Origin: Thermodesulfobacteriota bacterium
Lineage (GTDB): Bacteria > Desulfobacterota > Desulfobacteria > Desulfobacterales > JAUWMJ01
Assembly: GCA_034189135.1 (NCBI GenBank)
Contig: JAXHVO010000062.1
Location: 62,001 to 126,000, forward strand
Reading direction: 5' to 3'
DNA length: 64,000 nt
Positions 3,531 to 62,072 of this stretch are shown here, piece after piece. How positions within the stretch are numbered: the first letter of the stretch is position 1; the number at the start of each line of letters is the position of its first letter. Both the position numbers and the translations under genes were made by a program. Under the pieces are notes generated by a model. It had not been told where the DNA came from. It worked only from the letters and a program-made list of their open reading frames with translations, and made no database searches.

Positions 3531-3893
3531 TTAGCCCTTATCTTTATCTTCCGATTTATCCAATTCTCCAAGAACTTTAAACACAAACCGTGCGGGCCAT
3601 TCTGTCATAGCGCCACCCAAGGCGATTGCCACAGCGGTGGCTTCCTGAATCTCTTCTCTTGTTGCCCCCAGATCAGCAGCACTGCTGACGTGATATTCAA
3701 TTCAGCCGTAACAGCTGTTATGAATGCTTATCCCCAGTGCGATTAATTCTTTGTATTTTTGCTTAAGTGCACCACCTTGTAAAGCATTTGATTCAAGCTT
3801 TCCTATTTCGGTGAACGTTTTAATACCGATTTGACTCATCTGCCAGTTATACTTCTTCCTGGTCCTATTGATTTCATCGATGCTGGGAAACAT
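3531..3893 (-). CDS. AhpD-like (carboxymuconolactone decarboxylase family) selenoprotein, CxxU motif
   Basis: A 120-residue protein if the in-frame TGA at 3702-3704 is read as selenocysteine. The ATG at 3891-3893 follows a strong AAGGAG. The N-terminal half (KQKYKELIALGISIHNS) and C-terminal half (IEYHVSSAADLGATREEIQE) together match the AhpD/CMD fold without a gap or frame change. The redox motif reads C61-Y-G-U64-I-E-Y-H68, where the family has C-x-x-C-x-x-x-H, so the UGA replaces exactly the second cysteine, the peroxidatic one in AhpD, four residues before the histidine. A short hairpin with GU in its loop lies 19 bases after the UGA. tRNA-Sec and selB are in this window. Expected role: thiol/selenol peroxidase or disulfide reductase. 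A cysteine-to-stop mutation is the alternative, but no other lesion is present. Confidence 0.85.
3668..3704 (-). promoter_or_regulatory. putative bacterial SECIS element of the AhpD-like selenoprotein
   Basis: Reading leftward from the UGA (3702-3704), 19 bases are followed by a 6-bp perfect stem TCAGCA/TGCTGA (3683-3688 and 3673-3678) closing a GTGC tetraloop (3679-3682). Bacterial SECIS hairpins sit just downstream of the UGA inside the coding frame and usually show a GU in a small apical loop, as here. The assignment rests on position and shape only; the lower stem is weak. Confidence 0.55.
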
Positions 3894-3932
3894 GTTCTTC
3901 TCCTTTGAAAAAATAAGTTTGGGTTTTGAATA

Positions 3933-4182: not shown

Positions 4183-5058
4183 TTATTTTTCGCCTAATAT
4201 TAAAAACACTTTTCGTTTAAAAAAAAGATCTCCACCTTTTATGATAAAATATTTAGAAAGATCGGGATCGTTTAAACCTTTTTCTAACAAGTGGCTAATC
4301 TTTTTTTTGTTTTCTGACGATTGCTGGGCATGCCCGAGATATTCTTGAAGATGCAGCTCAATCTCAATCTCAAAGGTATTCTTAATTTTTATATTTCTTT
4401 GGTCATACAAGCTTTTAATGTATTCTTTTGGTAGTGTGATATGATGACTCACATCCACTGCTTTTTCGAATTCTTCAAAAAATCGATCGATCTTTTCATC
4501 TGAATGGGCGACAATATCTTGTATGCTGATACGCCCACCATTTTGGCAACACCGAGTCATTTCATCAAAAATTTTATCATATTCCTTAAAGTGATGAAAT
4601 GCGGATCGACAGATAACGATTGAGAACGATTTGTTTTTAAATGGAACTTGCTCAACTGGGTGGCATAAAAAGCTTATGTTATTGATATTTTTTTTATTAG
4701 CTTGTTTTTGTGCTATTGCTATCATTCCTGTTGAGATATCCACACCGTGAACATATTTAACTTTTGGTGCTGCAAAAATAGCATATTCACCTGTACCACA
4801 GGCAAAATCCAATAAAGTATCCTGAGAAGATATTTCGCAAAAATCGAAATAAGCTTTCTGATATTCAACATTTTTGGTGACTGACCAGTTGCTGAAATTC
4901 GTTGCCTGTTGGTCAAATTGTCTTTTTACAATTTCATGTATTTTCGACATTTCTAACAACCACTTTTTTTCACGTAGAAGTCCGGGGGTATGGTTAGACG
5001 CGTGGAAAACATTCTCATATTTTATGCACCCATAGTAATTCTCAAAAATATGTTTCAT
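4183..5058 (-). CDS. class I SAM-dependent methyltransferase
   Basis: Up to 291 residues; the conserved part starts at MSKIHEIVKRQFDQQA (residue 37, ATG at 4948-4950), which may be the true start since the first 36 residues have no family likeness. Motif I is LLDFACGTGEYAIFA, with an acidic end of strand 2 in VHGVDIS, and the post-I region ICRSAFHHF is like UbiE/COQ5-type methyltransferases. Cytoplasmic; substrate unknown. The gene and its surroundings are AT-rich compared with the catabolic cluster. Its 3' end touches the SRPBCC remnant, so the locus has probably been rearranged. No partner gene indicates a pathway. Confidence 0.75.
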   Translation of the reverse strand: MKHIFENYYGCIKYENVFHASNHTPGLLREKKWLLEMSKIHEIVKRQFDQQATNFSNWSVTKNVEYQKAYFDFCEISSQDTLLDFACGTGEYAIFAAPKVKYVHGVDISTGMIAIAQKQANKKNINNISFLCHPVEQVPFKNKSFSIVICRSAFHHFKEYDKIFDEMTRCCQNGGRISIQDIVAHSDEKIDRFFEEFEKAVDVSHHITLPKEYIKSLYDQRNIKIKNTFEIEIELHLQEYLGHAQQSSENKKKISHLLEKGLNDPDLSKYFIIKGGDLFFKRKVFLILGEK

Positions 5059-53323: not shown

Positions 53324-53834
53324 TTCTGACAGGGATGTAACATAATCACATTTTATTTCAGTATGTGACATCCCTTGAAATCTTGTGGCAATTGAATTTT
53401 ATCAAAGTTAATTTATTACGTTTATTATTCTATATCAACCTTCAAATTTTTCAATACCATTCAATTTCAGCTGCTTTTTCTCACCATTCTTGCGATTCTT
53501 TTTTTGTTATTGGAGTACCACCGCAACTGGTTGACGCTGAGAGAATAAAGGATAAATCGGGTTTTTCGATATAAAGCCCTTTTGATTATCGGAAATTCCA
53601 GTTTGACAAATAGGTTTATTCTCTTTATTTATATCAATTATAATTCAGCAATCTTCATAAGGAGCTTGTCCATGCATAAATTTTTCGGATTTACCTGAGT
53701 GTGCTTTAAAAATTCTGCCCGGGTTCGGTAGGCACAGGGTTTGGCCGAAAAATCATATCTATTCTTTTTTATTTATCATCTTTTACATTCATAAATCGAT
53801 CAGACTCTGTCACATCCCATTTTGAAAAAATATA
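53324..53834. other. gene-free stretch before tRNA-Sec
   Basis: About 510 AT-rich bases. A hairpin AGGGATGT/ACATCCCT (53331-53338, 53368-53375) right after the OYE stop may end that transcript. The rest shows no convincing gene; a 69-codon frame at 53365-53574 lacks any ribosome binding site and looks accidental. Confidence 0.45.
53331..53375 (+). terminator. hairpin after the Old Yellow Enzyme gene
   Basis: Eight-base perfect stem AGGGATGT / ACATCCCT with a 29-base AT-rich loop, eight bases after the stop codon. It lacks a T-run. Confidence 0.3.
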
Positions 53835-53921
53835 GGGGCAATGGTGCTGGGCGCCCCGCGGTCTTCAAAACCGTTGGCCCCGTCTGAAAAACGGGGAGGA
53901 GGTTCGATTCCCCTTGCCCCT
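53835..53921 (+). tRNA. selC: tRNA-Sec (anticodon UCA)
   Basis: GGGGCAA at the 5' end pairs with TTGCCCC at the 3' end. The anticodon stem GCGGT/ACCGT closes a 7-base loop CTTCAAA that gives anticodon TCA, reading UGA. A long variable arm with a CCCCGT/ACGGGG stem, typical of selenocysteine tRNA, and a T-loop GGTTCGATTC follow. It directly precedes selB, a common bacterial arrangement. Confidence 0.92.
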
Positions 53922-53966
53922 TCCAGAACGGAAGTAACAGAAAATTAAAAGTTGTAAATTCAGGTA

Positions 53967-55880
53967 ATGGAAAAACACATCACAATAGGTGTGGCCGGTC
54001 ATGTGGACCATGGGAAATCCGCCCTTGTCCGGTGTATGACCGGTATCGACACGGATCGATTGCAGGAAGAAAAGGTACGTGGTCTGTCTATAGAGTCAGG
54101 GATTGCGCCCTTAAAGCTTCCTTCCGGCCAAAGGGTCTCTTTGATAGATGTTCCAGGCCATACGGACTTTCTAAAAAATACTATCAGGGGTTTGAATAGT
54201 GTAGATATGGCAATTCTTGTAGTGGCGGCTGACGACGGGGTAATGCCTCAAACCCTTGAGCATCTGGAAGTGCTCCAATTTTTCAAAGTCAAGGGTGGGT
54301 TTGTTGTATTAAGTAAGACGGATCTTGTGGATGAGGAGACCTTGGAAATCGGCAGGCTTGAAATCAAAGAGGCATTAACAGGCACCATTTTCGAGGGAAA
54401 ACCTGTCATTTCATTTTCCGCACCCGATCTAACGGGTCTTGATGATATCCTTTTTTGCATTGATGGGGAGATAAAAGATATACCCTGCAAGATGACGGAT
54501 ACCCCTATGCGTCTGTGGATAGATCAAATCAAAAGATTTACAGGTATTGGAACCGTTGTTAGCGGAACTGTTCTGTCCGGTACTCTCAAACAGGATGATT
54601 CCCTGCAACTTATGCCAACCGGTTTGATAACACGAGCCCGTTCAATGGAATCACACGGGAAAAAAATCTCCATAGCTGTTGCGGGCCAACGGGTTGGTGT
54701 TAATCTGCATAAAATTTCTGTCAAAGCAGTAAAGCGTGGAACGGCCTTGGCAGAGCAGGGAGTTGTGAAACCCGGTTATTTATTGAATGTGGAACTTCAA
54801 GTACTTAAAAGGTCAGGCCAAACGCTTAAAAACAGACAAAGAGTGAGGCTCTATCTTGGAACCTCGGTTACGAACGCTATGGCAGTTTTGATGGACAATA
54901 AAAAATTGTCGCCTGGTGATAAAGGACTGGTACAGTTCCGTTTAATGAAGCCGATTGCCGCCCTTCCAAGGGATCCGTTTGTAGTTTCACCTTTAAACCT
55001 GAATACAATCATTGCCGGTGGAACAGTTCTGGAAGTCCCTCAAGAAAAGTTCAGAGAAGCAAAGGCTTTAACAATGATTCCATGTCTTAAAGCACTCCAA
55101 CAGGGCGATATGAAAGAATTTGTGGATTGTTTTTTCAGCAGAAATCAAACCCGGTTTATCACGGCAGGGGAGCTTGCCCAGGCTACTGGCCTTCCCATAA
55201 CCTACTTTGAGGCAGAAATCAGTTCAAGGGTCAGCAAGGGTGAATTTATATATCTTAAAGGTGAGGGGGCCTTTAAAAAAGATCATTATAATTCAGGGAA
55301 AAAAGAGATTTTAAATACTATTGAAAGTGTAATCAGGAAAAATCCATTAAAAAAGAACTTAAATGCCGTAGAGATTACAAACAGACTGGATACAGCTTTT
55401 GACGAAATACTGCTTAAAAAAATGCTTTCGGAACTTTGTGATGAAGGAAGGCTGGTGAAGATAGACGGCGGATTTCAATTTCAGAATCTTAAAGGTAAAT
55501 TTACAAAACAGCAGGAGCATTTGCTTTCACTGCTTTTCAAATACGCACAAAAAACGGGTGTCGTTCCCTTCAGCGCTGATACAATATGGAAGTTGCATGA
55601 TAAAAAATTTGAAAAGGATGAAATACAGAACCTTCTTGATTATTTATATTTTCAGAAAAAATTGATTCGCTTGAGTGATAAACGATTCTTATCTCTCGAG
55701 GCCTTGGAAGAGATTAAGAAAAGTGTGAAAGAATTCATTTTGCACAAGAGAAGCATAACCCTTGCAGACAGTAAAGAGATTTTAGGATACGGAAGGTGGG
55801 GAGGAGTTCCTGTTTTAGATTATCTGGATAAAATTGGTTTTACTTCAAGAAAGGGTAATGAGCGCGTTTTAAAAAAATGA
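53967..55880 (+). CDS. selB: selenocysteine-specific translation elongation factor SelB
   Basis: 637 residues. GTPase domain with GHVDHGKS (residues 11-18), DVPGH (about 62) and SKTD in the guanine-specificity position; EF-Tu-like barrels follow, and the last 270 residues are four winged-helix domains that bind the SECIS hairpin. It delivers Sec-tRNA to UGA codons. It sits 46 bases after the tRNA-Sec gene. selA and selD are not in this window. Confidence 0.95.
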   Translation: MEKHITIGVAGHVDHGKSALVRCMTGIDTDRLQEEKVRGLSIESGIAPLKLPSGQRVSLIDVPGHTDFLKNTIRGLNSVDMAILVVAADDGVMPQTLEHLEVLQFFKVKGGFVVLSKTDLVDEETLEIGRLEIKEALTGTIFEGKPVISFSAPDLTGLDDILFCIDGEIKDIPCKMTDTPMRLWIDQIKRFTGIGTVVSGTVLSGTLKQDDSLQLMPTGLITRARSMESHGKKISIAVAGQRVGVNLHKISVKAVKRGTALAEQGVVKPGYLLNVELQVLKRSGQTLKNRQRVRLYLGTSVTNAMAVLMDNKKLSPGDKGLVQFRLMKPIAALPRDPFVVSPLNLNTIIAGGTVLEVPQEKFREAKALTMIPCLKALQQGDMKEFVDCFFSRNQTRFITAGELAQATGLPITYFEAEISSRVSKGEFIYLKGEGAFKKDHYNSGKKEILNTIESVIRKNPLKKNLNAVEITNRLDTAFDEILLKKMLSELCDEGRLVKIDGGFQFQNLKGKFTKQQEHLLSLLFKYAQKTGVVPFSADTIWKLHDKKFEKDEIQNLLDYLYFQKKLIRLSDKRFLSLEALEEIKKSVKEFILHKRSITLADSKEILGYGRWGGVPVLDYLDKIGFTSRKGNERVLKK

Positions 55881-55898
55881 ATGAAATAGGAGGAAAAA

Positions 55899-57176
55899 AT
55901 GGGCGAAGATTACAGAAGTATGTGGGAAAGTTTGGGTTTAGACCTCGATGCGCATGATGCACTGCTTGAAGTGCTCGGTAAAGGTTACCAGGATATCTAT
56001 CTGGCACAGAAAGATCGGCCCGAAGGAATGGGCTATTTCGATTTTGTAATGAGCGAAGTACACGGATTGCGCATTAAGGAACTGTTGGACGAAAAGGCTG
56101 CCGGTCGCAAGGTGATCGGATCATTCTGTGTATTTGTGCCGGAAGAGATAGTGCGGGCTGCTGATGCCACACTTGTGGGCCTTTGTACAGGGGCTGATTT
56201 TGCCATGGAAGAAGTGGAAAAGCTTCTTCCCCGTAATACATGCGCTCTTATAAAGTCGGCCTTTGGATTTAAGCTGGGGAAGGTTTGCCCTTACCTTGAA
56301 TCTTCAGACATGATTGTTGGGGAAAACACGTGTGATGGAAAAAAGAAGTCCTATGAGACATTAACTAATCTCGTTCCCAACCTGTATGTAATGGACATAC
56401 CACAGGTTAAATCTGCAGAAGGAAGAGCTCTTATGAAAGCGGAATATCTGCGCTTCAAGGAGGCCGTTGAAGAACTTACCGATGTAAATCTTGATGCCGA
56501 AAGGCTCAAGAAAGGCATTGAAATCGTCAATAATAAACGAAAAGCGATTTACAGGCTGTCAAATTTGCGAAAAAACGATCCTGCACCTATTTCCGGGCTG
56601 GATGCCTTGCTGGCCAATCAGGTCTTTTTTTATGATAATCCTGTACGGTTCACAGAATCGGTGAACAAGATGTGCGATGAACTGGAAAAACGGATCGAAA
56701 AGAAAGAAGGCGTATTCCCTGAAAAAACACCACGCATCCTGATATCAGGATGTCCCATGGCCGTTCCCAACTGGAAACTTCCCTGGATTATAGAAACATC
56801 CGGCGCAGTTATTGTGGGAGAGGAATCCTGTGTTGGGGAGCGGGGCACCCGCAATCTGACCGATGATAGCTGGGATACTGTAGAAGAACTAATGGAAGCC
56901 ATCGTGGACCGTTATTTCGAAGTGGACTGCGCTATATTCACACCCAATCCCGATCGTCTTAACCACATTGTTGAAATGACCGAGACTTACAAAGTAGACG
57001 GTGTGATTCACTACGGTCTGCAATTCTGTCAGCCATATCTCATGGAATCCATGCCAGTGGAAAAGGCCCTTGAGGCAAAGAATATTCCAACCCTTCGTAT
57101 TGATACTGATTACAGCATGGAGGATGTGGGACAGCTCAAGACTAGGGTGGAGGCGTTTGTGGAATTATTGAAATAG
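55899..57176 (+). CDS. double-cubane-cluster-type reductase (2-hydroxyacyl-CoA dehydratase family, YjiM-like)
   Basis: 425 residues of the HgdB superfamily. Cysteines are seen in VIGSFCVFVPEEIV, VGLCTGADFAMEEV, LGKVCPYLESSDMIVGENTC (about residues 127-145), ILISGCPMAVPNWKL and EESCVGERGTRNL; GENTCDGKKK is characteristic of the double-cubane-cluster protein branch, single-polypeptide ATP-dependent reductases of small molecules. It lies between selB and its own activase, 19 bases from each, so they probably share a transcript. Substrate unknown. GGAGG precedes the ATG. Confidence 0.85.
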   Translation: MGEDYRSMWESLGLDLDAHDALLEVLGKGYQDIYLAQKDRPEGMGYFDFVMSEVHGLRIKELLDEKAAGRKVIGSFCVFVPEEIVRAADATLVGLCTGADFAMEEVEKLLPRNTCALIKSAFGFKLGKVCPYLESSDMIVGENTCDGKKKSYETLTNLVPNLYVMDIPQVKSAEGRALMKAEYLRFKEAVEELTDVNLDAERLKKGIEIVNNKRKAIYRLSNLRKNDPAPISGLDALLANQVFFYDNPVRFTESVNKMCDELEKRIEKKEGVFPEKTPRILISGCPMAVPNWKLPWIIETSGAVIVGEESCVGERGTRNLTDDSWDTVEELMEAIVDRYFEVDCAIFTPNPDRLNHIVEMTETYKVDGVIHYGLQFCQPYLMESMPVEKALEAKNIPTLRIDTDYSMEDVGQLKTRVEAFVELLK

Positions 57177-57194
57177 TAAAGCAAAGGAAAGCAC

Positions 57195-57950
57195 ATGAAA
57201 TATGCAGGCATAGATATTGGTTCGCGTTCTATTGAACTGGTGATCCTGAAAGACGGGGATATCATCCATTCCGCTAAAACCGCGACCACCTTTGATCCGC
57301 TTACCCAGTGCAAGCGTTTGATGAACGGTATAGAGGCAACAAGAACCATTGCCACCGGCTACGGGCGAAAACTTTTCACTGATAACGGGAACAGTAATAA
57401 TGTCTCAGCCATCACGGAAATCCAGGCATATGCAATGGGAGCCGGTCGGGTATGGCCGGATGCCCGCACGGTTCTTGATATCGGGGGGCAGGATACCAAG
57501 GTGATCTCTCTCAACGCCGAAGGGAAGGTGGCAAAGTTCGAGATGAATGATCGTTGTGCCGCGGGGACCGGGAAGTTTCTCGAATTCATGGCTGTTGCTC
57601 TCCAGGTTCCCATTGAATCCTTCGGGGGTTTCGCATTAGAGGCTGATAAAAGGATTCATATAAACAGCATGTGTACGGTCTTTGCTGAAAGTGAGGCCAC
57701 CTCCCTTATGGCCCGTGGCGAGAAGCCTGAAAACATAGCAATGGGTTTGCATCAGGCCATTGTTGATCGAACTTTTTCAATGCTCAGTCGAGTTGACGGA
57801 AAGGGGCCTGTGCTTTTTGCCAGCGGAGTTGCCCACAATCCCTGCGTGAAATCGATTTTTGAGGAAAAACTTACTGACGCCATAGTTGTCCCGGATGATC
57901 CTGACATGGTAGGTGCGCTTGGTGCGGCTTTGTATGCGGAAAGGAAATAA
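57195..57950 (+). CDS. acyl-CoA dehydratase / DCCP activase (BadF/BcrA ATPase family, YjiL-like)
   Basis: 251 residues. YAGIDIGSRSIELVILKDG (phosphate 1), TVLDIGGQDTKVISLN, cluster cysteines in NDRCAAGTGKFLEFM (about residue 119) and NSMCTVFAESEA (about 158), FASGVAHNPCVK and MVGALGAALYAER. Gives low-potential electrons to the reductase encoded upstream by ATP hydrolysis. The start is the usual one for the family, and AAGGAAA precedes it. Confidence 0.92.
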   Translation: MKYAGIDIGSRSIELVILKDGDIIHSAKTATTFDPLTQCKRLMNGIEATRTIATGYGRKLFTDNGNSNNVSAITEIQAYAMGAGRVWPDARTVLDIGGQDTKVISLNAEGKVAKFEMNDRCAAGTGKFLEFMAVALQVPIESFGGFALEADKRIHINSMCTVFAESEATSLMARGEKPENIAMGLHQAIVDRTFSMLSRVDGKGPVLFASGVAHNPCVKSIFEEKLTDAIVVPDDPDMVGALGAALYAERK

Positions 57951-58927: not shown

Positions 58928-59818
58928 ATGATTAGCAAAAAGGGATTTACACTGGTTTTATGCATTGCATTTATGTTCGTATCGTTGAGTACAGCTATGC
59001 CATCTTATGGCGAAAGTATTCTCAATAAGATAGAAAAGACAGGCAAGGTCAATATGGGATTTCGAGAAGGTTCAGTTCCCTTTGGTTTTATGAATAAAAA
59101 AGGAGAATGGGTGGGCTTTGGTCTGGATCTTGGAGAGGAAATCGTGAAGGCCCTGGAGCAGAAATTTGGAAAAAATATTAAACTGGTCAAGAAACCGATC
59201 AACCCCAAGACCCGAATTCCCCTGGTTGTAAACGGAACGGTTTACATCGGCATCGGCTCAACAACCATTACTCTTGCCAGGGAAGAGGTGGTCGACTTCA
59301 GCCTCCCATATTTTCTCACAGGGACCAGGATTCTGGTTACAAAGGACAGTCCCATCAAGGATTTTCCAGCCCTGGCCGGCAAGCGGGTCGGTATGGGTAG
59401 CGGGTCCACTGCTAATATTAAAGGGATAGACAGGGCAGTTGCATCGGGTCTTATCAAACCAGCCTGTAAGAAGGTCCTCTTTGAAGAGCACAACAAGGGG
59501 TTTCTGGCTCTGCAACAGGGTAAAATACATGCCTATTTTACGGATGCCAGCATATTGGCCGGCATGAAGGCAAAAGCCCGGAAGACAAGCGATTGGAAAA
59601 TCGTCGGCAGATACCTGACATATGAACCCTATGGAATCATTCTTCCTGAAAATCAGGGTGAATGGCGTGATTTCGTGAACGCCACGCTTATTAAAATGAT
59701 TAAAAGCGGCAAGTTTGAAGAAATTTACGATAAATGGTTCGGTCCGAACGGTGAGGTTCCGCTGCCCATGAGCAAAGAATACAAAACTCTGCTTAAAGCA
59801 TTGAGCTATCCGGACTAA
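58928..59818 (+). CDS. polar amino-acid-type ABC transporter, substrate-binding protein (SBP family 3)
   Basis: 296 residues. Signal peptide (residues 1-29), then two lobes with GFREGSVPFGFMNKKGEWVG, the central IGIGSTTITLAREEVVDFS and LAGKRVGMGSGSTANIKGID. Periplasmic receptor of the importer encoded by the next three genes. Family 3 proteins bind glutamate, glutamine, cystine and similar amino acids; the ligand cannot be told. AAGGAGG precedes the ATG. Confidence 0.9.
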   Translation: MISKKGFTLVLCIAFMFVSLSTAMPSYGESILNKIEKTGKVNMGFREGSVPFGFMNKKGEWVGFGLDLGEEIVKALEQKFGKNIKLVKKPINPKTRIPLVVNGTVYIGIGSTTITLAREEVVDFSLPYFLTGTRILVTKDSPIKDFPALAGKRVGMGSGSTANIKGIDRAVASGLIKPACKKVLFEEHNKGFLALQQGKIHAYFTDASILAGMKAKARKTSDWKIVGRYLTYEPYGIILPENQGEWRDFVNATLIKMIKSGKFEEIYDKWFGPNGEVPLPMSKEYKTLLKALSYPD

Positions 59819-59958
59819 GTCGTATTCCTTTAAGGCAAAGGCCTCTTATTAGAATTCGGGCATTATTTTGAGAAACGAATAATAAAGGGGGCCTTGCCCT
59901 TAGCTTTTAAAAATGATTGCCAACAATTATCAATAGATTCTCCAGTGCCGGATCGGTT

Positions 59959-60687
59959 ATGGGCTTTTTTAATTATACGTTTGATTGGAGTGTTCTCTGG
60001 CGGCATCCTTATGGCGGTTTGTTAATCAACGGTATTTTAACCACCCTCTATTTATCAATACTGGCCTGGATGATCGCTGTTTGTTTTGGTATAACAATCG
60101 GTGTTTTCAGGGTTTTGCCTTTTGGGTTGGCCCGTTTTGCAGGAAGCGCGTATGTGCAGATCTTCCGCAACACGCCTTTTCTTGTGCAACTTTTTTTCTG
60201 GTATTTTGCAGCGCCTTTATTGCTGCCCAAACCGGCGCAGGTGTGGTTGTACGATAATGTACCCAATTATTCTTATTTGGCCGGAGTTACCGCTCTGGGA
60301 ACATATACAGCCTCGCGGGTGGCAGAGCAGTTTCGTTCAGGTCTTTTATCCATATCTCATGATCAATACCGCGCTGCATATTCAACCGGCCTAACAACCT
60401 TGCAAACCTATCGATACGTAATTCTTCCATACGCATTCCGAATAATCATACCGGCTTTTACAACTGAATTTCTGACCTGTTTTAAAAATTCGGCGCTGAC
60501 CATGACCATAGGCGTAATGGAGATTACACATACTGCGTATTATATTGATTCATTTACCTGGCACGGACTGGAGACGACCACGGCAGCCAGCATGGTTTAT
60601 TTATGCATCGCGCTATGCGTTGTGCTCTTTATGTCGTTTATAGAAAAAAGAATTCATATTCCAGGTATGATTGCCAGGGAACAATGA
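59959..60687 (+). CDS. amino-acid ABC transporter permease (HisM/GltJ-like)
   Basis: About 242 residues. Start MGFFNYTFDWSVLWRHPYGG is chosen for its likeness to GltJ-type permeases and the GGATCGG ahead; a TTG at 59917 is possible. The EAA-loop that contacts the ATPase is SISHDQYRAAYSTGLTTLQT. Pairs with the next permease, three bases downstream, to form the heterodimeric channel. Confidence 0.9.
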   Translation: MGFFNYTFDWSVLWRHPYGGLLINGILTTLYLSILAWMIAVCFGITIGVFRVLPFGLARFAGSAYVQIFRNTPFLVQLFFWYFAAPLLLPKPAQVWLYDNVPNYSYLAGVTALGTYTASRVAEQFRSGLLSISHDQYRAAYSTGLTTLQTYRYVILPYAFRIIIPAFTTEFLTCFKNSALTMTIGVMEITHTAYYIDSFTWHGLETTTAASMVYLCIALCVVLFMSFIEKRIHIPGMIAREQ

Positions 60688-60690
60688 GCT

Positions 60691-61347
60691 ATGGACCTGA
60701 GCGTCATTTCAATAAACTTTAAATTCATGATAGGAGGTCTTGCTCTAACTTTTGAGTTAGCCCTGATGACGATGGGAGGCGGTTTGCTGATCGGTATTAT
60801 TCTGGCGATGGCCAGACTTTCACCCAGACCTTGGTTATATTATCCAGCCACCGTTTACATCCATTTTTTTCGCGGGCTGCCTCTGATCCTGGTAATTTTC
60901 TGGATATACTTTCTGTCACCCGTTATTACAGGAAAATCTCTGGAAGCGTTTCCTGCTGCTGTAATTTCTTTTATTGTATTTGAATCTGCTTATTTTGCTG
61001 AAATTATTCGTGCCGGGGTGCAGTCCATTTCCCGTGGACAGACAATGGCGGCTTACGCCGGCGGTTTAACTGCCTATCAAACTGCGCGTTATGTGATCCT
61101 GCCGCAGGCACTACGTAATATGGTTCCGTCACTGGTCACTCAGGCCGTAATTATCTTTCAGGATACATCCCTGGCCTATGTTATCGGACTGAGAGAATTC
61201 CTGCGCCGGGTCAATTTGGTTGACGCACGCGAGGCGCGGTCCGTTGAACTCTATCTCTTCGCCGGCCTGGTCTATTTTGCAATCTGTTCCGCGGGTTCTC
61301 TGGCAAGCCATCGGATCGAAAAGCAGCGTGAAAGGAGTTATCATTGA
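60691..61347 (+). CDS. amino-acid ABC transporter permease (GltK/HisQ-like)
   Basis: 218 residues with five helices. EAA-loop [20 protein letters not shown]. Its stop overlaps the TTG start of the ATPase gene by four bases, so they are translationally coupled. Confidence 0.9.
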
Positions 61348-62072
61348 TTAAAATCAAAGGACTTAGCTTATGGTATAATAAAGGGTTTAAAGCACTTGAT
61401 AATGTCACAGAAACAATAGAAACAGGCAGAACAGTTGTTATATGCGGCCCCAGTGGTTCAGGTAAGAGTTCTTTGCTCAGGTGTATAAATGGCCTTGAGC
61501 ATTTCCAGGAAGGTGAGATCTTTGTCGATGGGATATCCGTGCAGGATCCTGAAACAGATATTCATAAATTTCGCTCTGATATCGGTATGGTATTCCAACA
61601 TTTTGAGCTCTATCCTCACATGACGGCAATGCAGAATATAACCCTGGCACCTATCCGGGTTCGTAAAAAATCAAAAAGAGAGGCTGAGAAAAACGCCATG
61701 GAGCTACTCAAAAGGGTAGAGATCCCGGAACAAGCTCGTAAATACCCGGCGGAACTTTCCGGTGGACAGAAGCAGCGGGTGGCCATCGCCAGAGCTCTGG
61801 CCATGGAACCTAAAATTATGCTTTTTGATGAGCCCACCTCGGCCCTGGATCCCGAAATGATAAAAGAGGTTCTCGAAGTCATGATTAACCTGGCCAGGGG
61901 AGGGATGACAATGATTGTTGTAACTCATGAAATGGGATTTGCCGGGAAAGTGGCAGATGAGATCATTTTTATGAGTAATGGATGTATTATTGAAAAAGGA
62001 ACTAACCGAAGCTTTTTTGATAATCCTAAAAATGAAAGAACCCGTCAGTTCTTAAGTCGTATCCTGATATAA
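61344..62072 (+). CDS. amino-acid ABC transporter ATP-binding protein (GlnQ-like)
   Basis: 242 residues. Walker [18 protein letters not shown]-loop [14 protein letters not shown], signature [17 protein letters not shown], Walker [16 protein letters not shown] and switch histidine in VVTHEMGFA. Powers the importer. TTG start, coupled to the permease gene. All four transporter genes are close together and follow the rhodanese/activase remnants. Confidence 0.93.

Follow-up and report, generated by a model that had tools for sequence, protein, structure and literature searches.

A conserved in-frame UGA in a probable selenoprotein gene of the AhpD-like type and two UGA-reading systems in a Desulfobacterales genome

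Introduction

A UGA codon inside an otherwise intact reading frame raises the questions of whether it is read as an amino acid and, if so, by which tRNA. Both arise for a small AhpD-like gene in a 64,000-nucleotide stretch of DNA from a Thermodesulfobacteriota bacterium of the Desulfobacterales (hereafter the window, meaning the whole stretch analyzed). An initial annotation made from this DNA alone proposed that the UGA encodes selenocysteine (Sec), and cited a tRNA-Sec and a selB gene in the same window as support.

Results

Gene Layout and Predicted Fold

The initial annotation placed the gene correctly (3531–3893) without stating its strand, which is minus: the gene runs from an ATG at 3893 to a TAA stop at 3533–3531 (Table 1). 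Translation from 3893 to 3531 with TGA read as U gives MFPS...NSCYGUIEYHVSSAADLG...DKG and then the stop, a product of 120 residues with U at position 64 in the motif C61-Y-G-U64-I-E-Y-H68. The two halves are thus in one frame, as had been claimed, and the CMD domain is complete only with the C-terminal half. The ribosome binding site that had been described is likewise present, AAGGAG lying 6–7 nt ahead of the ATG. In this gene and its relatives alike, ordinary gene calling would drop the half with the active site.

Table 1. Features of the window discussed in the text
Feature	Position	Strand	Basis
AhpD-like (CMD, PF02627) selenoprotein gene, 120 codons, Sec codon 64	3534..3893	minus	translation, profile match, relatives
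In-frame UGA, codon 64, second position of C61-x-x-U64-x-x-x-H68	3702..3704	minus	translation, relatives
Shine-Dalgarno AAGGAG	3900..3905	minus	sequence
SECIS-like hairpin GUCAGCA-GUGC-UGCUGAU	3672..3689	minus	folding and 17-orthologue codon comparison
selC*-type tRNA-Cys(UCA)	53834..53925	plus	ARAGORN and Rfam say tRNA-Sec; Cys identity marks
selB*, second divergent SelB	53967..55880	plus	sequence clade, pocket residue

The product belongs to the CMD superfamily (PF02627 profile, 6e-15, 55.4 bits against a curated cut-off of 23) and contains the AhpD core domain (TIGR00778, 49.7 bits against a cut-off of 27.8). It falls far under the cut-off of the AhpD equivalog TIGR00777 (18.1 versus 191.95 bits) and under those of the GSU3128 family NF041047 (35.5 versus 110 bits) and the NF041537 fusion (51.8 versus 510 bits), the last being its best NCBIfam match by E-value. 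An AlphaFold2 model (pLDDT 79) predicts an all-helical fold of the CMD type for a protein of roughly 13 kDa, with 1vke and 5dik as the top PDB matches. In a PDB search the CxxC motifs of 5dik and 1vke align with C61/U64, which places the UGA at the site of the second Cys of the AhpD/CMD motif, where it had been proposed to lie. E49, C61, U64, and H68 are unchanged in all six aligned orthologues, and they are spaced exactly as Glu118/Cys130/Cys133/His137 in the relay of mycobacterial AhpD.

A CxxU motif with Sec at its second position, set in an AhpD/CMD fold, implies catalysis by thiol/selenol redox chemistry. The product would carry C61-Y-G-U64-I-E-Y-H68, and its E49 and H68 match the AhpD proton relay in spacing; U64 would attack the substrate and C61 would resolve the selenenyl-sulfide formed at U64, the protein most likely being a selenol-dependent peroxidase or disulfide reductase. 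The “peroxidase” label follows from fold and motif and, like any assignment of enzymatic role and reductant, is putative.

No conserved neighbors of the gene were found across 19 loci, so no partner is inferred for the protein. Upstream lies a methyltransferase gene (4183–5058, minus) with a weak match (52.7 bits) to the methyltransferase part of NF041537, while the remaining part of this fused ArsM/AhpD selenoprotein is the one matched by the AhpD-like protein; the adjacency of the two genes is not conserved in relatives. The gene is adjoined by an open reading frame for a four-helix-bundle protein (TIGR02436, PF05635; 3023–3337, minus) that has an in-frame TGA of its own (ETQI-U-LTVD), probably a nonsense mutation and not a Sec codon. 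Of the further candidates for UGA readthrough in the window, this frame alone was taken on and matched to a family, and its site is unlikely to be Sec.

Conservation of the UGA

Among 194 related genomes, all five relatives with 58%–80% identity have an in-frame TGA at codon 64; two of them also show a TAA or TAG, the ordinary stop that closes the matched stretch. A scan of genome contigs yielded 19 subfamily loci, these five included, with TGA at codon 64 in 18 and TGT in one. A search of homologues for Cys or UGA at position 64, proposed at the outset as a check, therefore gave one or the other at every locus, the sole Cys member being L108 (Syntrophobacterales). Of the two patterns used in the scan, CYGCIEYH matches Cys versions only, and the rarity of Cys members is therefore meaningful. 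The 18 TGA loci come from Desulfobacterota plus one Latescibacterota record, and one of these copies (L114) looks degenerate. The phylogeny of the U and Cys members, with L108 on a long branch, has too little resolution for dating a Cys-to-Sec change. The UGA is aligned to the conserved Cys of homologues, conservation continues downstream of it, and substitutions among orthologues show a third-position excess on both of its sides. The UGA, the frame, and their conservation are confirmed far beyond chance.

A SECIS-like Hairpin

The initial annotation had also reported a GU-loop hairpin 19 bases past the UGA. A GUGC apical loop does start 19 nt past the UGA, on a 7-bp stem that starts at 12 nt. 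Codons +5 to +8 (GTC AGC AGT GCT), which supply the 5′ arm and the loop, are nearly fixed across 17 orthologues: +5 to +7 each appear as a single codon in 16–17 sequences, whereas the remaining invariant residues that have synonymous codons are encoded by 2–6 of them each. Across six orthologues the 3′ arm varies only by pairing-preserving changes (G-C/G-U or U-A/U-G), with a pair broken in 0/6 and two-sided compensatory changes found in none. The Cys-bearing L108 has GTCACCAAGGCC at this site, and the hairpin is lost. RNA folding, which had been suggested as a check, bears out the presence of the hairpin but not its stability: for the single sequence, the folding energy is not significantly lower than that of shuffles (z = −0.41). 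Because stability alone is unremarkable, support for the hairpin is comparative. With its position just 3′ of the UGA, a G in the apical loop, and its conservation, the hairpin is of the bSECIS type, though weak on folding energy alone.

Canonical Sec Machinery Outside the Window

The source genome (95.5% complete) encodes one SelA and two SelB proteins, along with two tRNAs accepted by the tRNA-Sec model. SelA, a canonical SelB, and a canonical tRNA-Sec are all present, on contigs C37, C140, and C30, all outside the window; the tRNA on C30 scores 75 bits and has G73 before CCA. SelA was found in 17 of the 19 carrier genomes. Two near-complete UGA-bearing genomes, G057 and G112, each have one canonical tRNA-Sec, one canonical SelB, and SelA, and no selB*-like match or selC*-scoring tRNA was found in either; a third UGA-bearing genome, G142 (85% complete), also has the canonical machinery, with no selB*/selC* found. 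Of 14 further carrier genomes, 5 gave no tRNA-Sec at E <= 1e-7; gaps in draft assemblies are the likely explanation, since four of the five carry SelA.

The Window Pair Is a selC* tRNA-Cys with selB*

The tRNA in the window scores 53 bits on the tRNA-Sec model. Its acceptor is an 8-bp stem (AGGGGCAA/TTGCCCCT) followed by T-CCA, giving A1:U72, U73, and an encoded CCA, and it has a 4-bp T stem with a bulged A (an 8/4 arm) and the anticodon UCA. These features, with a selB* directly downstream, are those of selC* tRNA-Cys. The selC* tRNA-Cys and SelB* come from Mukai et al. (2017), as relayed in PMC7609411, PMC9437257, and PMC11415595; in Desulfobacterales, selC* tRNA-Cys has A1:U72 and UCA, with a second selB after it (PMC7609411), and according to the reviews pairs of this type insert Cys at Sec UGA codons (PMC7609411, PMC9437257, PMC11415595).

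The SelB of the window falls in a clade with 37%–58% identity within the order, versus about 30%–35% to canonical SelB. A selC*-type tRNA lies just upstream in 26 of the 29 other loci of the selB* clade that were fetched, and T precedes CCA in all clade-locus tRNAs whose end is present. An Arg in the Sec pocket is a feature of bacterial SelB (PMC5059743); in the window selB*, Gln replaces one such Arg. That the window tRNA and SelB form a canonical Sec pair is ruled out by A1:U72, U73, and the divergent SelB. The tRNA and selB of the window can thus no longer serve as the support for Sec that they had been taken to be: the initial annotation treated the UGA readers of the window as a single Sec system, whereas the genome holds two, the canonical pair being on other contigs. 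For Desulfobacterales this carries a warning, that a “tRNA-Sec” call beside selB is no proof of selenocysteine.

No CysRS* without the anticodon-binding domain was found in the source genome (95.5% complete), and the selC*/selB*/cysS* set is to that extent not matched. Two CysRS genes were found there, one canonical and the other a CysK-CysRS fusion, in which cysteine synthase is joined to the second cysteinyl-tRNA synthetase (761 aa; L045 1486–3771, contig C27). The CysRS part of the fusion has near-full CysRS length and aligns to near the C terminus of the canonical enzyme; in this genome, the fusion is a candidate for charging the selC* tRNA. Elsewhere in the clade, a CysRS gene follows selB* in L122, L127, and L135, and L119 (G214) has two tandem selC*-selB* copies, with two tRNAs and two SelB* matches in 4.9 kb.

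Within 53834–57950 of the window, the genes that come after selC*-selB* are a double-cubane-cluster reductase (NF040772, 472 versus 350 bits) and its activase (TIGR00241). A gene sharing the N terminus of the reductase follows selB* in L117, L121, and L123, and the association looks conserved. Downstream of the selC*/selB* cluster lies a polar amino-acid ABC transporter (58928–62072), and L125 has a similar substrate-binding protein after selB*; a role of the transporter in cystine or amino-acid supply is conceivable.

Discussion

Which Machinery Reads the UGA

The evidence argues, with high confidence, for a joint explanation in which the UGA at codon 64 is read as Sec through the canonical machinery, in a redox-active CMD/AhpD-like protein. 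The canonical SelB, tRNA-Sec (G73), and SelA, encoded on contigs other than that of the gene, would recognize the hairpin just past the UGA and deliver Sec at codon 64. The proposal of Sec in an AhpD-like CxxU motif therefore stands, on other grounds than the window pair: the homologues, the conserved hairpin, the hairpin-less Cys version, and SelA, canonical SelB, and tRNA-Sec elsewhere in the genome. Some genomes with UGA orthologues yielded only the canonical pair, indicating that Sec is the ancestral reading of this UGA, and the canonical-only state of G057, G112, and G142 indicates that UGA reads as Sec in the subfamily. We infer actual Sec insertion at codon 64, and the built-in UGA is almost certainly read as selenocysteine.

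In the source genome, and there alone, SelB*/selC* may compete by bringing Cys to the UGA. A dual reading, with Sec inserted when selenium is available and Cys supplied through selC*/SelB* when it is scarce, is possible, if doubtful; were it true, Sec and Cys forms from one gene would constitute a selenium-sparing switch. That the UGA is here read wholly or mainly as Cys, giving an ordinary CxxC AhpD-like protein, is quite unlikely. The Cys identity marks and UCA anticodon of the window tRNA, the divergent SelB that follows it, the Gln at a pocket Arg position, the second CysRS of the genome, and the Cys reported at Sec UGA codons in the reviews (PMC7609411, PMC9437257, PMC11415595) would all fit such a reading. 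However, the orthologues in G057, G112, and G142 keep the UGA with canonical machinery and no selC*/selB* found, no other UGA orthologue occurs among the selB*-bearing genomes sampled, and the second CysRS is the CysK fusion reaching near the canonical C terminus and not the domain-less CysRS*.

A genuine stop or nonsense mutation, leaving a pseudogene or a 63-residue peptide, is very improbable: the genome is an assembled environmental one and the adjacent four-helix-bundle gene also has an in-frame TGA, at a site not known as Cys, but here the codon is kept across Desulfobacterota and a Latescibacterota record (18/19 loci), the third-position excess persists past it, and the C-terminal half is needed for a complete CMD domain. 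Readthrough as another amino acid, e.g. Trp, has nothing specific in its favor and is extremely unlikely, as homologues carry Cys at the site, window genes end normally at UGA, and SelA, tRNA-Sec, and SelB are present. Cys insertion at Sec codons by SelB* is a published, little-tested idea, and this gene, as a 13-kDa reporter, makes direct testing possible.

Comparison with Known Systems

The Sargasso Sea and GOS surveys (PMC1088965, PMC2398784, PMC13188914 table) reported CMD-like (PF02627, CxxU) and AhpD-like 1/2 (COG2128/pfam02627, CxxU) selenoproteins, in line with the remark in the initial annotation that such proteins had been reported from environmental surveys, and a 2026 review lists AhpD-like and CMD-like CxxU selenoproteins. 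The gene described here shares with them the CMD/AhpD fold, CxxU, a downstream SECIS, and widespread Cys homologues, their representatives (e.g. MBW1767730.1) being compared by description only. It is a genuine selenoprotein gene of the CxxU AhpD/CMD-like type already reported from marine surveys. Its subfamily has a WPARFVFK tail, is mostly from Desulfobacterota, and passes no dedicated NCBIfam equivalog. The arsenite methyltransferase/AhpD-domain selenoprotein NF041537 and GSU3128 (NF041047) likewise have CxxU in the AhpD domain, but scores against them are under cut-off and the gene here is stand-alone. TM1620 (1vke/1p8c) and lpg0406 (5dik) have the fold and the CxxC position in common with it at roughly 30% identity, with Cys where it has UGA/Sec.

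The window pair agrees with published selC*/SelB* in U73, A1:U72, UCA, the 8/4 arm with bulged A, selB directly downstream, and occurrence in Desulfobacterales, and differs from published selC*/selB*/cysS* in having no cysS* directly downstream. The source genome combines a well-conserved UGA gene with two SelB proteins and two UGA-reading tRNAs, and this coexistence in one genome of two UGA-reading systems of different amino-acid identity is the more interesting point.
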